Assembly (NCBI GenBank): GCA_016200005.1
Contig: JACQFP010000016.1
Span: 1-64,000 of the forward strand
DNA: 64,000 bases
Direction of reading: 5' to 3'
Origin: Verrucomicrobiota bacterium
Lineage (GTDB): Bacteria > Verrucomicrobiota > Verrucomicrobiia > Limisphaerales > PALSA-1396
Shown here: in pieces, positions 46,826 through 59,507 of the stretch
How the letters are laid out: every line of letters begins with the position of its first letter
Numbering within the stretch: the first letter of the stretch is position 1
The notes under the pieces: generated by a model
Seen by the model: the letters and a program-made list of their open reading frames with translations, nothing else
The model's database searches: none
Told to the model about the DNA's origin: nothing
Translations under genes and position numbers: made by a program

Positions 46826-47533
46826 ATGATGACACGACGCCAAGCCATTCAAAAGACCGCACTCGCCACTGCCGCAGTCGCGGTTGGTTCGTCGCTGACC
46901 AGCGCACAAGCACAAACCGCCGCCGGCCCGTTCACGCTGCCGCCGCTACCTTATGCGTTCGACGCGCTCGAGCCACACATCGACGCGCAAACGATGCAGA
47001 TCCACCACGACAAACATCACGCTGCGTACGTCATGAACCTCAACAAAGCCGTCGCCGATCATCCAGACCTGGCGAAAAAAACCGTGGAGGAAGTCCTCAA
47101 AGATTTATCTTCCGTTCCCCAAAACATCCGCACTGCCGTCCGCAATCACGGCGGCGGGCATTACAACCACTCGTTGTTCTGGCAGATGATGAAGAAAGGC
47201 GGGGGCGGTGAACCGAAGGCTGCGTTGGCCAAAGCCATCGACAAGAGCTTCGGCAGCTTCGCCGGGTTCAAAGACAAACTCACCGACACGGCGACGAAGG
47301 TTTTTGGCAGCGGTTGGGCATGGCTCGTATTGGATGGCAAGGCCGTAAAGATTGAGTCGTCGCCAAACCAGGACTCACCATTAAGCCAGGGCCATCACAT
47401 GCTGCTCGGCATCGACGTTTGGGAACACGCCTACTATCTCAAGTACCAAAACAAGCGCGCCGACTACATCGCCGCCTGGTTCAACGTCATCAACTGGGAT
47501 TTCGTTTCCGAGCGCTTTGAAAAACTAGCTTGA
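46826..47533 (+). CDS. Exported superoxide dismutase (Mn/Fe family)
   Basis: 235 aa. ATG 46826 follows AAGGAA. The N-terminus [20 protein letters not shown] is a Tat-type signal (RR then hydrophobic core, cleavage near AQAQT). The mature domain has all metal ligands: His in [12 protein letters not shown], His in [12 protein letters not shown], and Asp plus His in [11 protein letters not shown]. It dismutates superoxide; the Tat signal places it outside the cytoplasm, folded with its metal. Metal choice (Mn or Fe) cannot be settled by eye. Followed by another Tat-signal protein. Confidence 0.92.
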
Positions 47534-47586
47534 AATCCAGGAAAGCGGAATCGGCCTTCACCGTCACACAAATCCAAAATGATTTT

Positions 47587-48471
47587 ATGCGTAACAAACT
47601 TTCCCGTCGCTCCGCGCTCCGCAAAATGGCCGGTAGCGCCGTCGCGATGAGCGCCGCAGCCAGCCTCACCTCACGACTCCGCGCCGCAGATGCCGCCGTT
47701 GGCAAAATGAAAGGCCGCATCAACCACTCCGTCTGCAAGTGGTGTTATTCCAAGGTCAGCCTCGAAGACCTCTGCGTAGCCGGCAAGGACATCGGCCTCC
47801 AATCTGTCGAACTGCTCGAGGTTAAGGATTTTGCCACGCTCAAGAAACACGGCCTCATCTGCGCCATGGTCAGCGGTGTGCCAGGCGGAATCTCCGACGG
47901 CTTCAACCGATTGGAGAATCACGACAAACTGGTGGAATATTTCGAGCGAACCACATCGGTGGTCGCCGATCACGGTTTTGTGAACATCATTTGTTTTTCC
48001 GGCAACCGCCGCGGACTCGACGACCAGAAGGGTTTGGAGAATTGCGCCATCGGTCTCAAGCGCGTCATGCCGATTGCCGAGAAGCACAAAGTCACCGTCT
48101 GCATGGAGCTGCTCAACAGCAAGGTCGATCACAAGGACTATCAATGCGACCACACGGTGTGGGGCGTGGAACTGGTCAAGCGCGTCGGATCGGAACATTT
48201 CAAACTGCTCTACGACATCTACCACATGCAAATCATGGAGGGCGATGTCATCCGCACCATTCGGCAGAACCAGCAATACATCGCGCACTATCACACCGGC
48301 GGCGTGCCCGGTCGCGGCGAGATCGACGAAACCCAGGAACTGAATTATCCGGCGATCATGAAGGCGATTGTCGAAACCGGTTTCAAAGGCCACGTCGCGC
48401 AGGAATTTGTTCCGAAACGACCCGATGTCCTCGCCTCACTCAAACAAGGCGTGAACATTTGCGATGTGTGA
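47587..48471 (+). CDS. Tat-exported TIM-barrel protein, hydroxypyruvate isomerase-like
   Basis: 294 aa. MRNKLSRRSALRKMAGSAVA is a twin-arginine signal. The rest is a xylose-isomerase-like TIM barrel (AP_endonuc_2 family) closest in style to hydroxypyruvate/2-keto-myo-inositol isomerases: acidic metal ligands in VCMELLNSK, LYDIYHMQIMEGD and HVAQEFVPK. Substrate unknown. It lies 53 bp after the superoxide dismutase gene on the same strand. Confidence 0.83.
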   Translation: MRNKLSRRSALRKMAGSAVAMSAAASLTSRLRAADAAVGKMKGRINHSVCKWCYSKVSLEDLCVAGKDIGLQSVELLEVKDFATLKKHGLICAMVSGVPGGISDGFNRLENHDKLVEYFERTTSVVADHGFVNIICFSGNRRGLDDQKGLENCAIGLKRVMPIAEKHKVTVCMELLNSKVDHKDYQCDHTVWGVELVKRVGSEHFKLLYDIYHMQIMEGDVIRTIRQNQQYIAHYHTGGVPGRGEIDETQELNYPAIMKAIVETGFKGHVAQEFVPKRPDVLASLKQGVNICDV

Positions 48472-48565
48472 TTCTGTTTTATCCGAAGTTAGAAAAGGCG
48501 TCGCGCCGCATTGCCAATCGCGGCATGCTGCCGCGCCTTCATCTAAAACGTGAATCCGGCACATA

Positions 48566-48769
48566 TCACGCGGGCTGCTTATACGGATGCGAAACGACTT
48601 GCGAGTTGATATGAAGATGTTGCTCGACGGGGCCTTGCTGCACGACGACAGGGTTGGAAATTGTGACGCGCACGTGCGCGCTCCATTTTCCCGCAAGTTT
48701 GGACAAATCGGTGTTCTTGGTCTCCGACTGCTCTAACGACGACGCTGCCCATGTCTTCTCAAGAGTCAT
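48566..48769 (-). CDS. Small protein downstream of the ClpP-fold protease
   Basis: 67 aa, not recognised. ATG 48769 follows a good ribosome binding site (GAAAGG, 7-8 nt). The sequence begins MTLEKTWAASSLEQSETK and contains the hydrophobic segment HVRVTISNPVVVQQGP; no signal peptide or membrane helix is seen. The start lies 4 bp after the stop of the protease gene, so the two are probably co-translated. It could be a partner, substrate or regulator of the protease. Confidence 0.6.
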   Translation of the reverse strand: MTLEKTWAASSLEQSETKNTDLSKLAGKWSAHVRVTISNPVVVQQGPVEQHLHINSQVVSHPYKQPA

Positions 48770-48773
48770 ACAA

Positions 48774-49976
48774 TTACCTTTCAATTTTCCACCCTGAATT
48801 AAGTTGGACAAGTTCGAATCCTTTTTGCGGCAGTGACCGTATCAAGTTAATTACAGCATTTTGTGCGGCTGAGTTCAAGCTTTGCTGCACACATGCCTGA
48901 ACAATCTGTTGAACTAATTGCAGAAGTTGTTGTTGATCCAGGGGTTGTGGGAACTGAAGATTCCCAAGATTTATCGGTGGCAACGTCAGATTCGTCAGGT
49001 TGATGTTCAGTGTTGGAGGAATCTCCCTGAGCCGTCGAACACGCACGGTTTTCTTGCACGTGTCAACACGGCCCAAGCTCTCGATAATCGCGAATGGCAG
49101 GTCATCCCAAGAGTGTTCTTCCAAGCCGTTGGCGATCAGATGCTCTTCAGGTAAGAAAGGCGTTTCGAGTTGGAAGAGTTCTCGGTACTGTAGATATAGA
49201 TCCCACAGAGGCGTTTCGAGCTCCTCCGTCTCTGCGTCTTTGACATGCTTCAACCCCAAATATTTGACGGCCTCTGCCCTGTTGATCGCGTGGCTATGCG
49301 AGTACACTTCAGACGAGAGTTTTTTAATGATCTCGTGGTTCTCTTCTTCCGTGAAAGGTTTCGCGCGGGTACTGAGCAGTCTCAATCCCACGAGTTTCGT
49401 TTCTTCGAGTAGGCGGTTGACAGCGCCGAGTGCGAGTGGGTGTACTCGCCGCGTCATTTCTTTGAACCCTTCCATTTTTTCCGACGGGCGCTCGCATCCA
49501 ACACGGTCGAGAAGCGCAAAATATCCGTTTACATCTTCTACGGAAACCGGCAGGCGATTCGGCGTGTTTCCCTCGGTTGGATTGTAAGGGCCACTGGCCA
49601 TTGTCGCGTCGATTGGCCCGAGTTCACCCTTCTTTGTCATCAGGATTTCATCTGCCCCAAGGCAGATCACTGTCGCGGCACTGTGCGCCCGATAAGGAAC
49701 CAGAACGCTGAACGATCCCCTGTGACAATACTGTCGGAACATCGAAACAAGTGCCCAAGGCACGTCACTGTGCCCTCCACGGCTGTAGAGGAAGAGGTCT
49801 AATTTGCTTCGCTCGGCTTCGTTGAAACCAAGAATGTGATCGTGAATGATAGAAACAACATCACCAGCTATTTGAGCTGCAAACCCAGGGCGGTCGCTCG
49901 TGACGTAGGCGATGAGTTTCGATCCACGTTTCTTCTCTATCGCTTCGATTAGTGCGCGGCGCTCTGCAAGTCCCAT
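48774..49976 (-). CDS. SDH/SppA-like serine protease of the ClpP fold
   Basis: 400 aa. The N-terminal about 200 residues match the SDH proteinase family (ClpP/crotonase fold): an oxyanion-type glycine loop LFLYSRGGHSDVPWALV, and the SAATVICLGADEILMTKKGELGPIDA segment with the presumed nucleophile Ser (HSAAT) as in SppA-like enzymes. The C-terminal about 200 residues are family-specific, with a Leu/Gln-rich stretch (QLLQLVQQIVQACVQQS). No signal peptide or TM helix, so probably cytosolic. Base composition is visibly less GC-rich than the flanking genes. Function in the cell is unknown; related proteins in archaea are membrane-associated. Confidence 0.75.
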   Translation of the reverse strand: MGLAERRALIEAIEKKRGSKLIAYVTSDRPGFAAQIAGDVVSIIHDHILGFNEAERSKLDLFLYSRGGHSDVPWALVSMFRQYCHRGSFSVLVPYRAHSAATVICLGADEILMTKKGELGPIDATMASGPYNPTEGNTPNRLPVSVEDVNGYFALLDRVGCERPSEKMEGFKEMTRRVHPLALGAVNRLLEETKLVGLRLLSTRAKPFTEEENHEIIKKLSSEVYSHSHAINRAEAVKYLGLKHVKDAETEELETPLWDLYLQYRELFQLETPFLPEEHLIANGLEEHSWDDLPFAIIESLGRVDTCKKTVRVRRLREIPPTLNINLTNLTLPPINLGNLQFPQPLDQQQLLQLVQQIVQACVQQSLNSAAQNAVINLIRSLPQKGFELVQLNSGWKIER

Positions 49977-50037
49977 AAAGTGGGCAAATAGTTGCCGTTG
50001 TTAGTCGGACGGTCAAGACGAGATGTTCGCCCCTGAT

Positions 50038-51072
50038 TCAAAATTGCCTCAAAAACCGAAGGTCATTTTCGTAAAACAGCCGGATGTCGTTGATGCCATA
50101 GCGAATCATCGCGATGCGTTCGATGCCGAAACCGAAGGCCCAACCCGTCCAGACTTCCGGATCATAGCCAACATTTTCAAACACCTGGGGATGAATCATC
50201 CCGCAACCGGCGATCTCCAGCCAATCCTTGCCCATCTTCTTGACGAGCGGACTCGAGAAATCGATTTCAAAACTCGGCTCGGTGTAGCTGAAGTAGTGCG
50301 GGCGAAAACGAATCTTCACGTCGCTGCCGAGCAATTCCTTGAACACAAATTCCACCGTCCCCTTGAGATCGCCGACGGTGACGTTCTTATCCACATACAC
50401 GCCGTCGATTTGCTGGAAGGTGGGGTTGTGCGTGGCATCGGCGTTGTCGCGACGATAAACCCGGCCCGGCACGACGATGCGCACCGGCGGCTGTTGCGTT
50501 TCAAGCGTGCGGATTTGAACTGAGGTCGTGTGCGTGCGCAGCAACAGTTGAGAGTTTTTAGTTGAGGGTTGAGAGCCAGCAACGGGCGCGAGGTAAAACG
50601 TATCCTGCGCGTCGCGCGCCGGATGGTCGGCGGGTGTGTTGAGCGCGTCGAAGCAATGATACTCGTCTTCGATCTCCGGACCATCGGCGACCACGAAACC
50701 AATCTTGCGGAAAATTCGCACGATGTCTTCGGTCACCTGGGTGAGCGGATGCAATTTGCCGAGCGTGCGGCGGCGTCCGGGCAAAGTGAAATCGGTTGGC
50801 TCTTTGGGCAGCGCCGCTTTGAGTTCCAATTCGTCACGCCGTTCAGCGAGCGCGGTTTCCAGTTCGGTCTTCGCCTGATTGATGAGTTTGCCGGCGGCAG
50901 GCCGTTCCTCCTTCGACAACGACCCGAGTTGTTTCATCAATGCCGTGAATTTGCCGTGCGTGCCGACGTAGTTGACGCGCGCCTGTTCCAGCGCGGCGAG
51001 GTCGGGCGCGAACTTCAATTCCGCCAGCGCGGCTTGTTTGAGCGGTTCAATTTGGTCGATCAGTCCAGCCAT
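50038..51072 (-). CDS. pheS: Phenylalanine-tRNA ligase alpha subunit
   Basis: 344 aa from ATG 51072 (MAGLIDQIEPLKQAALAEL). N-terminal coiled coil, then class II core with HPLTQVTEDIVRIFRKIGF, the LLLRTHTTSVQIRTLE motif 2 region, FQQIDGVYVDKNVTVGDLKG and GFGIERIAMIRYGINDIR (motif 3). A heptad tract inserts about 10 residues (GSQPSTKNSQ) just before LLLRTH, at about residues 167-176, with the frame kept. Follows rplT after an intrinsic terminator. The pheT gene is not adjacent. Confidence 0.95.
   Translation of the reverse strand: MAGLIDQIEPLKQAALAELKFAPDLAALEQARVNYVGTHGKFTALMKQLGSLSKEERPAAGKLINQAKTELETALAERRDELELKAALPKEPTDFTLPGRRRTLGKLHPLTQVTEDIVRIFRKIGFVVADGPEIEDEYHCFDALNTPADHPARDAQDTFYLAPVAGSQPSTKNSQLLLRTHTTSVQIRTLETQQPPVRIVVPGRVYRRDNADATHNPTFQQIDGVYVDKNVTVGDLKGTVEFVFKELLGSDVKIRFRPHYFSYTEPSFEIDFSSPLVKKMGKDWLEIAGCGMIHPQVFENVGYDPEVWTGWAFGFGIERIAMIRYGINDIRLFYENDLRFLRQF
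50546..50573. repeat. Heptad tract inside pheS
   Basis: On the coding strand four 7-nt units TCTCAAC, CCTCAAC, TAAAAAC and TCTCAAC run in tandem in the pheS reading frame, giving a short low-complexity insert. Confidence 0.9.
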
Positions 51073-51160
51073 AATTTCCCGAATGTTAGCGACAGCACAG
51101 AGCAATGAACACCAAGAAAATTCCTGTCAGACACGGAGTGCTGCTGTGTTCGCGCTCTGT

Positions 51161-57126: not shown

Positions 57127-57673
57127 GGAACGAAAGTAAATTCTTCGCGGCGACCGGTCAAAGAGGTTTTGAGTGGGATGCGCCGCCAGCGCAACGTGAC
57201 ACCACCATCCCAATCGTCGAACGCACAAATTCCCCGCACCCGGCCTGCCGCCCACCCGCTCCCCATCCGATGGGGGGAGAATTCCCCGAAAGGAAATTTC
57301 GCGCATCAAACCCCAGAACCCGACGGGCGACGACGTAGCGCGGGCGTCTTCGCCTGCGAGTTGGCCAGGCGTCCCGCCGGGCGTTCGCGCTGGCAGCGGG
57401 ACGCTGCTGCAACTCGCAGCCGGGACGGACTGCGCTACAGGGTTCATCGAGAGGGACGGGGTGAGGGGTAACTGCTTTTGCCGAACATCACAGGCAATTG
57501 ATCTGAGACAATGGCGTTTGTAATCAACCTGTGAATAACTTTCTGAGGGGTTACCCGGTATTTGTCCAACCCCATCGGCTAGATTGGAACGCATGAAACT
57601 AAAACCTTGTCGTGATTTGGTGTGGATGATACGAACAAGCGATTCCACTTGGAATGGTTTTCGACTACCGGAG
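57127..57673. repeat. Intergenic palindrome cluster
   Basis: 547 bp with no gene. It contains a tight palindrome CTCCCCATC-GATGGGGGGAG (57259-57279) and a nested set at 57335-57438: GTAGCGC/GCGCTAC outermost, CTGCGAGTTG/CAACTCGCAG (57354-57363 with 57410-57419), GCGTCCCGC/GCGGGACGC (57369-57377 with 57396-57404). These are REP-like and separate mlaE from the CRISPR-Cas remnant. Confidence 0.75.
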
Positions 57674-57871
57674 ATGAACTACTACGCGCACACCGCCGCC
57701 GATAACCACCCTCGCCCATCGGATGGGAGAGGGGTTGGGGGTGAGGACTGGCAACCTCTGTCCGTTCACCTCTGCAGCGTCGCGGACTCGGCGAAGAAAT
57801 TTGCTGGCCCGCTTGGCCTCGCCGCCGAAGCCGAACGAGTCGGATTGTTGCACGATTTATCCAAGATTTGA
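57674..57871 (+). pseudogene. cas3: cas3 5' fragment 1 (HD nuclease, type I-C)
   Basis: 65 aa. MNYYAHTAAD and WQPLSVHLCSVADSAKKFA, then the HD-type GLLHDLSKI, match the N-terminus of type I-C Cas3, but the reading frame ends right after the metal-binding HD motif. About 14 residues (57711-57750) between the two parts come from a small palindrome (CCCATC-GATGGG with flanking G/C runs) inserted in frame. The gene is truncated: the helicase domain is missing. It is followed 7 bp later by a second cas3-like start. Confidence 0.72.
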
Positions 57872-57878
57872 TGTAGCC

Positions 57879-58124
57879 ATGAACGCCACTCAACTCTTGG
57901 CCCACCCGGACCAATCGCTCGTTAAACATCTCTTGGGTGTGGCCCGCCGTGCAAAAGAGTTCGCCGCTCGCTTCCAAGGGGAGAATCACGCTGAGTTGGC
58001 GGGGCTGCTCCACGACTTGGGCAAGGCCGAGAAGGAGTTCCAAGACCGGATAGCGGGCAAAAAAGCTGATACCCCCTCATCACGCCGTCCGCCGCCCGTG
58101 GCATTCTGGAGGCCATCCTCATGA
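57879..58124 (+). pseudogene. cas3: cas3 5' fragment 2 (HD nuclease)
   Basis: 81 aa with MNATQLLAHPDQSLVKHLLG, ARRAKEFAARF and the HD motif GLLHDLGKAEKEF, again typical of Cas3. After RIAGKK the frame leaves the Cas3 sequence; the neighbouring frame then continues as Cas5. The sequence differs from fragment 1, so either two cas3 genes were present or one was duplicated and diverged. The remainder of Cas3 is lost. Confidence 0.72.
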
Positions 58125-58350
58125 AGCCCATCGAAAAGCCCGAATCCGGCAATCGCCACAACAAGGTCGGCTTCCGCTGGGTCATCACCCGTTTGGGCAT
58201 CATCAACAAGGGGACGATGTTCTCGATTCTTCGCAATGAACTCGGATACGGCGCGCATCAGAAACCGGAGAACGCCACCGGTTATGACATCAATGCCGAC
58301 CGCATCCGCGCCCAACGCCACAGCCTCGTTCTCAAAGACGTGGAATACCT
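58070..58350 (+). pseudogene. cas5c: cas5 (Cas5c) fragment, type I-C
   Basis: Internal Cas5 segment: LITPSAARGILEAIL (in the frame beginning at 58070), then FRWVITRLGIINKGTMFSIL and DRIRAQRHSLVLKDVEYL. The first motif is characteristic of Cas5d/Cas5c, which in type I-C processes crRNA. Both ends are missing: a deletion joins it to the cas3 fragment on the left and to cas1 on the right at about 58350. Confidence 0.7.
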
Positions 58351-59179
58351 GCAAGCGCGGATGACGGGTGTCGCCGACACCAGCGTCACTCTCCGCCGCG
58401 CACAATTCCGGGCCGCCGATGATTCGGCCAAATGCGCCGGCATCGCGCGGCAGATCATCGCCGGCAAACTTCAAAACAGCCGCAACTCTCTCTTGCGCGC
58501 CGCTCGCGAAACTGAAATCTCCGATCACAAATCTCAGATCGCTGAGGCCACCGACGCTCTCGCCCGACAGATTCAAGAACTGGGCCGCTGGACGACGGAG
58601 CGACTTCGCGAACCTGGCGCGCTCGACGCTCTGCGCGGCGCGGAAGGCATGGGCGCGCAGACTTACTTCAGCGTCTTCACCCTATTGCTCAAACAACAGC
58701 GCGATGAATTCACGTTCACCACGCGCACGCGGCGTCCGCCCCGCGACCGTATCAATTGCCTTCTCTCATTCCTTTACGCACTGGTGCGGCACGATTGTAT
58801 CGCCGGACTCACGAGCATCGGCCTTGATCCGTTCGTTGGTTTCCTGCACGCCGAACGCCCGAACCGTCCGGCGCTGGCGCTGGATTTGATGGAAGAATTT
58901 CGCCCTTGGCTGGCCGACCGGCTGGCGGTCACGCTCGTCAACCGGCAGCAAGTCGGGACGGAAGATTTCAAAATGCGTGAAGGCGGCGCGGTGGAGTTCA
59001 CGGATGCCGGCCGCAAGCGCGTCATCAAAGCCTATCAGGAACGCAAGCAGGAGAAACTCACGCACCCGCTGCTCGATCAGGAGTTTCGTCTAGCGCAGAT
59101 CCCTTTCGTGCAGGCGCGCGTTCTGGCCCGTCATCTGCGCGGCGACTTGACGGATTACATTCCGCTCGTTCCCAAGTGA
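58121..59179 (+). CDS. cas1: Cas5-remnant/Cas1 C-terminal fusion
   Basis: 352 aa open frame from ATG 58121. The first about 77 residues are the Cas5 remnant; from about residue 77 the sequence is Cas1 (type I-C style): LRRAQFRAADDSAKCAGIA, GIEG-like LRGAEGMGAQTYFSVF, RRPPRDRINCLLSFLYALV, GLDPFVGFLHAERPNRP and ALALDLMEEFRP. The catalytic Glu175, His243 and Asp255/Glu258 appear to be retained, but the N-terminal beta domain of Cas1 is gone, so integrase function is doubtful. A heptad tract lies between its stop and cas2. Confidence 0.75.
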   Translation: MKPIEKPESGNRHNKVGFRWVITRLGIINKGTMFSILRNELGYGAHQKPENATGYDINADRIRAQRHSLVLKDVEYLQARMTGVADTSVTLRRAQFRAADDSAKCAGIARQIIAGKLQNSRNSLLRAARETEISDHKSQIAEATDALARQIQELGRWTTERLREPGALDALRGAEGMGAQTYFSVFTLLLKQQRDEFTFTTRTRRPPRDRINCLLSFLYALVRHDCIAGLTSIGLDPFVGFLHAERPNRPALALDLMEEFRPWLADRLAVTLVNRQQVGTEDFKMREGGAVEFTDAGRKRVIKAYQERKQEKLTHPLLDQEFRLAQIPFVQARVLARHLRGDLTDYIPLVPK

Positions 59180-59184
59180 ACTTG

Positions 59185-59216
59185 ACTCTCAACTTTCAAC
59201 ACTCAACTCTCAACTC
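59185..59216. repeat. Heptad tract between cas1 and cas2
   Basis: Tandem ACTCTCA, ACTTTCA, ACACTCA, ACTCTCA and a degenerate ACTCGTG unit, ending at the cas2 start codon. Confidence 0.85.
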
Positions 59217-59507
59217 GTGCTCATCCTGGTCACCTACGACGTTTCGACCGTGGAAGCCGCTGGCCGGCGTCGGCTGCGGCGCGTGGCGCAGGCTTGTGAG
59301 GACTACGGAACGCGCGTGCAGAAGTCGGTGTTCGAATGTCAGGTTGGCCAGAAGGAATGGGCGTCGTTGCGCGACCGGCTGCTCCGAGAGATCAACGCGG
59401 AGGAAGACTCACTCCGCTTTTACTTTCTCGACGAAAAAGCCGTTCAACGCACCGAACATCACGGCGTTGACAAGCCGGTGGATTTGACGGAGCCGCTGAT
59501 TTTATGA
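59217..59507 (+). CDS. cas2: CRISPR-associated endoribonuclease Cas2
   Basis: 96 aa, full family length. GTG start at 59217. LILVTYDVSTVEAAGRRRLRRVAQ has the conserved Asp near the N-terminus; GTRVQKSVFECQVGQKEW and LRFYFLDEKAVQRTEHHG follow as in type I-C Cas2. Usually forms the adapter of the Cas1-Cas2 spacer-acquisition complex. It appears intact although the partner Cas1 and the effector genes are damaged. Confidence 0.9.
   Translation: MLILVTYDVSTVEAAGRRRLRRVAQACEDYGTRVQKSVFECQVGQKEWASLRDRLLREINAEEDSLRFYFLDEKAVQRTEHHGVDKPVDLTEPLIL

Follow-up and report, generated by a model that had tools for sequence, protein, structure and literature searches.

Within the window, by which we mean the whole 64,000-nucleotide stretch of verrucomicrobial DNA that was analysed, two genes lie one after the other on the minus strand. 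The first (48774..49976) has an ATG start and encodes a 400-aa SDH-type serine protease of the ClpP fold. The second, a small partner gene coding for 67 aa (48566..48769), opens with its own ATG 4 nt beyond the protease stop. Both ORFs had been pointed out in a sequence-only reading of this DNA, and our analysis confirmed them together with the SDH/SppA-like assignment of the first, as residues 6-130 of its product match Pfam SDH_protease (PF01972) with E = 7.1e-9 and 35.5 bits, above the cut-off of 31.3.

The same reading correctly placed the pair between housekeeping genes. To the left, a plus-strand gene (47530..48471) encodes a xylose-isomerase-like TIM-barrel protein (PF01261), and to the right lies pheS, the minus-strand gene for the alpha subunit of phenylalanyl-tRNA synthetase (50038..51105). 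Both are kept in the sister genome.

Probable gain of the two-gene segment and its distribution

Comparison with a congeneric genome (G489, locus L138) delimits the extra DNA. The order mutY, sod, isomerase-like gene, pheS is retained there, and the gap between the last two genes holds about 100 bp of unrelated sequence versus 1.56 kb in the window. This empty-site comparison places a foreign segment of 1.56 kb at 48477..50039, in which the protease gene and the small gene are the only genes. No integrase or transposase ORF was recognised within it, and no target-site duplication or terminal repeats stood out at its junctions. The pair had been described as an "island"; the piece is foreign, but the word overstates a stretch of about 1.5 kb with just two genes. 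Past the stop of the small gene, at 48488..48545, one can read a G+C-rich hairpin-like sequence of the GGCGTCGCGCC...GGCGCGGC type, possibly a candidate terminator. No U-tract terminator was called at these positions, and an Rfam search gave no match.

The protease gene has a GC content of 0.51 and a GC3 of 0.54, while the GC of the window is 0.57 and the GC3 of neighbouring genes about 0.69. Its GC3 ranks third-lowest among 43 ORFs of the window, and the two ORFs below it are probably non-genes. The small gene, with a GC3 of 0.66, lies nearer the average. Normal composition had been named as evidence against a special status of the pair; the calculated composition is not normal. Taken together, the near-empty site in G489 and the low GC3 of the protease gene point to a recent gain in the window lineage or to a loss in G489, of which the gain is the simplest reading.

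The window's own genome carries one copy of the protease gene, and no other close copy was found in a sample of 387 genomes of the phylum. Among 320 genomes of the order, one full-strength copy of the clade defined below was present besides that of the window. A search of 84,980 species genomes returned only two close full-length relatives, both at 65% identity, one in a Verrucomicrobia MAG (L001) and one in a Zetaproteobacteria MAG (L002); further viral scans gained only one more relative group. The three proteins are roughly equidistant from each other, which argues that the gene moves between phyla.

About 8 kb from the pair, at 57584-59507, the window also contains a decayed remnant of a type I-C CRISPR system. 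It comprises Cas3-HD-like fragments, a Cas2-like ORF and a Cas1 that matches PADLOC Cas1c (E = 3e-104) and has its first ~70 residues replaced. No repeat array was found near it.

Fold and putative active site of the protease

Beyond PF01972, matches to described families are distant. The window protease scores 48.4 bits against NCBIfam NF047768 ("SDH family Clp fold serine proteinase"), far short of the equivalog cut-off of 250. Neither PADLOC 2023, searched with the window protease, nor the PDB, searched by sequence with the protease or with profile A3, yielded a match.

The protein consists of a core (residues ~1-270) and a C-terminal beta/helix domain (~271-400). The AlphaFold model (mean pLDDT 82, pTM 0.75) has a ClpP-like core, and in its C-terminal domain long strands span residues 287-299, 304-315 and 387-399, with a long helix at 348-381. 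The core fold resembles the solved structures of ClpP and of the NfeD 1510-N/SppA peptidases: VIA-align superposes it on ClpP and NfeD 1510-N with Z ~12.4 over ~175-184 residues at an rmsd of ~4.

Ser99, Asp123 and His227 are invariant across the clade and its sister group and nearly so in other SDH proteins that cover these sites. Among ~100 homologues that span the respective site we counted no substitution of Ser99 or Asp123 and one of His227. These residues form a putative catalytic triad, and judged by their conservation the active site is apparently intact. From the spacing along the sequence we infer a Ser-Asp-His order that differs from that of ClpP, with Asp123 at the position of the catalytic His122 and His227 approximately at that of Asp171. 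Also unlike the situation in ClpP, no Clp ATPase gene lies near the window protease, and the Lys of NfeD/SppA is not conserved.

The window protease shares with the PF01972/NF047768 SDH family the ClpP fold and the conserved Ser, Asp and His. Unlike the NF047768 proteinases, it is linked to a small gene and has in addition the C-terminal beta/helix domain, in which one Trp is invariant. The Trp in question, Trp396, is invariant or nearly so within the clade. Conservation within the window's subgroup is lower in the C-terminal domain (52-55%) than in the core (69-73%), as expected if the former faces a variable partner.

The small partner gene and its pairing with the protease

In both close relatives, L001 and L002, an ORF of 65-67 aa begins 2 nt past the protease stop, and the 3' end of the protease gene contains a Shine-Dalgarno-like GGAG. 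The three small proteins align (shuffle Z 11-20) and share the motif W.ASS...DL..LAG.W, in which W, ASS and DL..LAG.W are conserved. The third codon position is where the three genes differ most often, and the non-synonymous distance of the small gene is ~2.5-3 times that of the protease. The small ORF is therefore not a chance ORF, given homologues in the same place in both close relatives and the excess of third-position differences. It encodes a constrained but fast-evolving protein.

Searches against Pfam and NCBIfam placed the small protein in no family at cut-off. In PADLOC its only match (E = 0.008) was to an internal segment of a type I MTase, which we took as chance. An AF2 model built from only three sequences is unstructured (pLDDT 53), and it would fit a peptide-like inhibitor or bait. 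We also considered whether the small ORF might be a frameshifted extension of the protease; this was excluded, since start offsets vary (-16 to +6, up to ~+50) and the frames differ.

A profile built from 15 relatives was run against every locus fetched. The proteins that scored above 300, here called the clade, share a conserved terminal segment that contains a Trp. Behind most of them, on the same strand, lies a small ORF that starts between -16 and +6 nt from the protease stop; in a few cases the start lies at +10 (a GTG) or at +35 to +52 nt. Under a strict criterion (ATG start, 50-130 aa, start at -20 to +10) the pairing was found in 12/18 clade members, 0/22 members of the sister group, 7/54 other SDH proteins and 17/183 background ORFs (Fisher p = 1e-6). 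One locus, L031, enters the 12/18 through another ORF, its likely partner being the one with the GTG start at +10.

In a phylogenetic tree, 17 of the 18 proteins cluster together, at a weak support of 0.64, and the eighteenth, L035, joins the sister group. An ORF of 52-125 aa stands at the protease stop in 14/17 of the tree-clade members. The co-occurrence that the sequence-only reading called for is thus observed, both in this count and in the homologous small genes of the two close relatives. Protease homologues lacking the small gene, which the reading had listed as evidence against it, are indeed many; they belong to other branches, and in the window's clade pairing is the rule. The three unpaired members (L026, L028, L029) constitute a single subclade (support 0.99), which fits one ancestral pairing followed by one loss. 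This loss also indicates that the partner is not always needed. Homology between the small proteins is detectable only within subgroups (window/L001/L002, L031/L032 and L041/L073), which falls short of showing that all partners belong to one family.

Two loci (L033:6391-7125 and L034:2580-3005) have a third small gene after the partner, with a shared QGDI(L/F) motif and no Pfam match; here the module may consist of three genes. In four members of the sister group (L043, L044, L048, L050) a gene for an LpxA-like acyltransferase directly follows the protease gene, which suggests a conserved chromosomal role for that branch.

Among 5,426 complete genomes of Escherichia coli, 47 carry a clade member, with copies at least 99% identical. 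Eight copies from viral contigs and a plasmid (L025, L122-L128) diverge more than those of the complete genomes. All have an intact ORF of 59 aa, which begins before the protease stop with an overlap of 8 nt. Synonymous changes account for 14 of the 20 codons that vary in it (binomial p = 3e-5 with an expectation of 25%, 3e-4 with 30%), and the corresponding figure for the E. coli protease is 87/100. Judging from these codon counts, the 59-aa gene is under purifying selection. It is unannotated in the plasmid-prophage record NZ_CP081794.1 (L025:8980-9159), and a terminator-like hairpin with a T stretch lies immediately past its stop.

Genomic contexts and possible role

In the plasmid-prophage record CT01 the E. 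coli pair sits between the holin gene and that for antiterminator Q and runs opposite to them; the matched segment extends into Q in the E. coli genomes listed. The same slot, again on the opposite strand, is occupied in Shigella phage SfII by SfII_50/SfII_49 (L159:1414-3028), which match PDC-M53A/B, a pair listed in PADLOC as a candidate defence system only. Despite the shared position and orientation, the proteins of the E. coli pair and of PDC-M53A/B are unrelated by family searches. In phage PhiR40_1 yet another opposite-strand gene is found at this site. The Q-holin slot is an exchangeable cargo slot, and it looks like a cargo hotspot.

Other members of the clade have defence genes nearby. 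In L129, a genome of gammaproteobacterium class by search route, the pair belongs to a prophage and lies opposite tail genes, followed by UmuC/UmuD-like and AbiEi-AbiEii genes. The pair adjoins a type IIG methylase-restriction gene in L001 and is near a type II methylase and REase in L033 and near an MTase-Mrr fusion in L034; L030 has a methylase-like fragment nearby. PbeA and PbeC are near L035, which in the tree falls outside the paired clade. In general, clear defence genes accompany 5/13 clade loci and 1/12 sister-group control loci (p = 0.10), the single control positive being, by our own reading, an orphan Dam-like methylase; control matches of PADLOC to DEDDh, RtcR and mad were counted as housekeeping. 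The excess over controls is suggestive and below significance, and the sample of contexts is biased because most members come from viral contigs.

What emerges is a real, mobile two-gene module, present across the clade, whose protease looks intact at its active site. The sequence-only reading had offered regulated proteolysis, a toxin-antitoxin-like function or defence for it. The computable part of this is supported: the two genes travel together, occur sporadically and across phyla, and members of the clade are found in prophage cargo slots or beside defence genes; defence and regulation themselves are what we infer from this pattern. An anti-phage role, drawn from the cargo and defence contexts, is plausible. 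Our preferred reading, in which we place about as much trust as doubt, is that the mobile protease and its small, fast-evolving partner protect the cell, by phage defence or, in prophages, by superinfection exclusion, with the small protein controlling the protease. Points against it are that the copies of the window and of L002 have housekeeping genes around them and that neither window protein has a convincing PADLOC match.

The mechanism we propose would run as follows. Both proteins would be made from one message, and coupled translation would keep the small protein at a matching level. As an inhibitor, adaptor or sensor, it would restrain or direct the protease, perhaps by docking on the C-terminal beta-domain, where the invariant Trp is found. 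On a signal from a phage, this balance would be upset and proteolysis of a host or phage protein released, and infection would be stopped. In its way of working, such a module may be likened to two-gene protease-regulator defence systems, where an effector protease is held by a controlling partner; unlike the protease systems in PADLOC, the window pair has no sequence match to any of them.

The terminase or portal genes that accompany the pair on viral contigs (L027, L030, L032, L034) could also speak for cargo that serves the phage against its host. Here the protease would remove a host defence or regulatory protein and the small protein would act as its adaptor. We consider this unlikely, as the copies in the window, L002 and L130 are chromosomal and stand alone without phage genes, and the E. 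coli and L129 copies oppose the neighbouring late genes in the manner of cargo expressed in a lysogen.

A marginally lower probability goes to an addiction module of toxin-antitoxin type, which would retain the mobile DNA without any role in defence and have the small protein as antitoxin. An overlapping, mobile two-gene operon with a fast-evolving partner would suit such a module. Most antitoxin genes precede the toxin gene, however, whereas here the small gene is downstream of the protease, and the loss of the partner in an entire subclade would be intolerable with a free toxin.

Slightly less probable again is a horizontally acquired system of regulated housekeeping or stress proteolysis. 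The sister group, which looks chromosomal and in some members stands next to the LpxA-like gene, agrees with this explanation, but the clade itself is extremely patchy, with one close copy in 387 genomes of the phylum, and is missing from the sister genome.

Finally, the protease might mature phage heads, with the small protein as scaffold or decoration. ClpP-fold proteases perform this task in many phages, there are weak matches to the head-maturation family NF045542 and to phrog_53, and terminase or portal genes are close to some members. This reading is nevertheless strongly disfavoured and very improbable, because the NF045542 score is 20.7 bits vs a cut-off of 120, the E. coli prophage already encodes an HK97 prohead protease (its SDH gene being in the Q-holin slot) and neither capsid nor other phage genes surround the window copy.

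Nothing relevant came up when the literature was searched for SDH proteases with a role in defence, and "DefensePredictor" makes no mention of SDH or ClpP. The module is absent from PADLOC 2023 and without description in the literature searched. A bolder version of the protective reading, which we put forward tentatively and regard as rather doubtful, is that the pair represents a new, widespread two-gene anti-phage family, in which an SDH protease is governed by a hypervariable partner that itself senses the phage or serves as bait, and that E. coli prophages hold a ready representative of it.

Within the ClpP superfamily, the SDH branch is one whose biology is hardly described in the literature searched. 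Through the clade reported here this branch becomes linked with a second gene as well as with mobile DNA, and the hypothesis can be tested in E. coli. If it is true, the sensing of infection would be coupled to proteolysis in a new way, by a hypervariable small protein that switches a protease.
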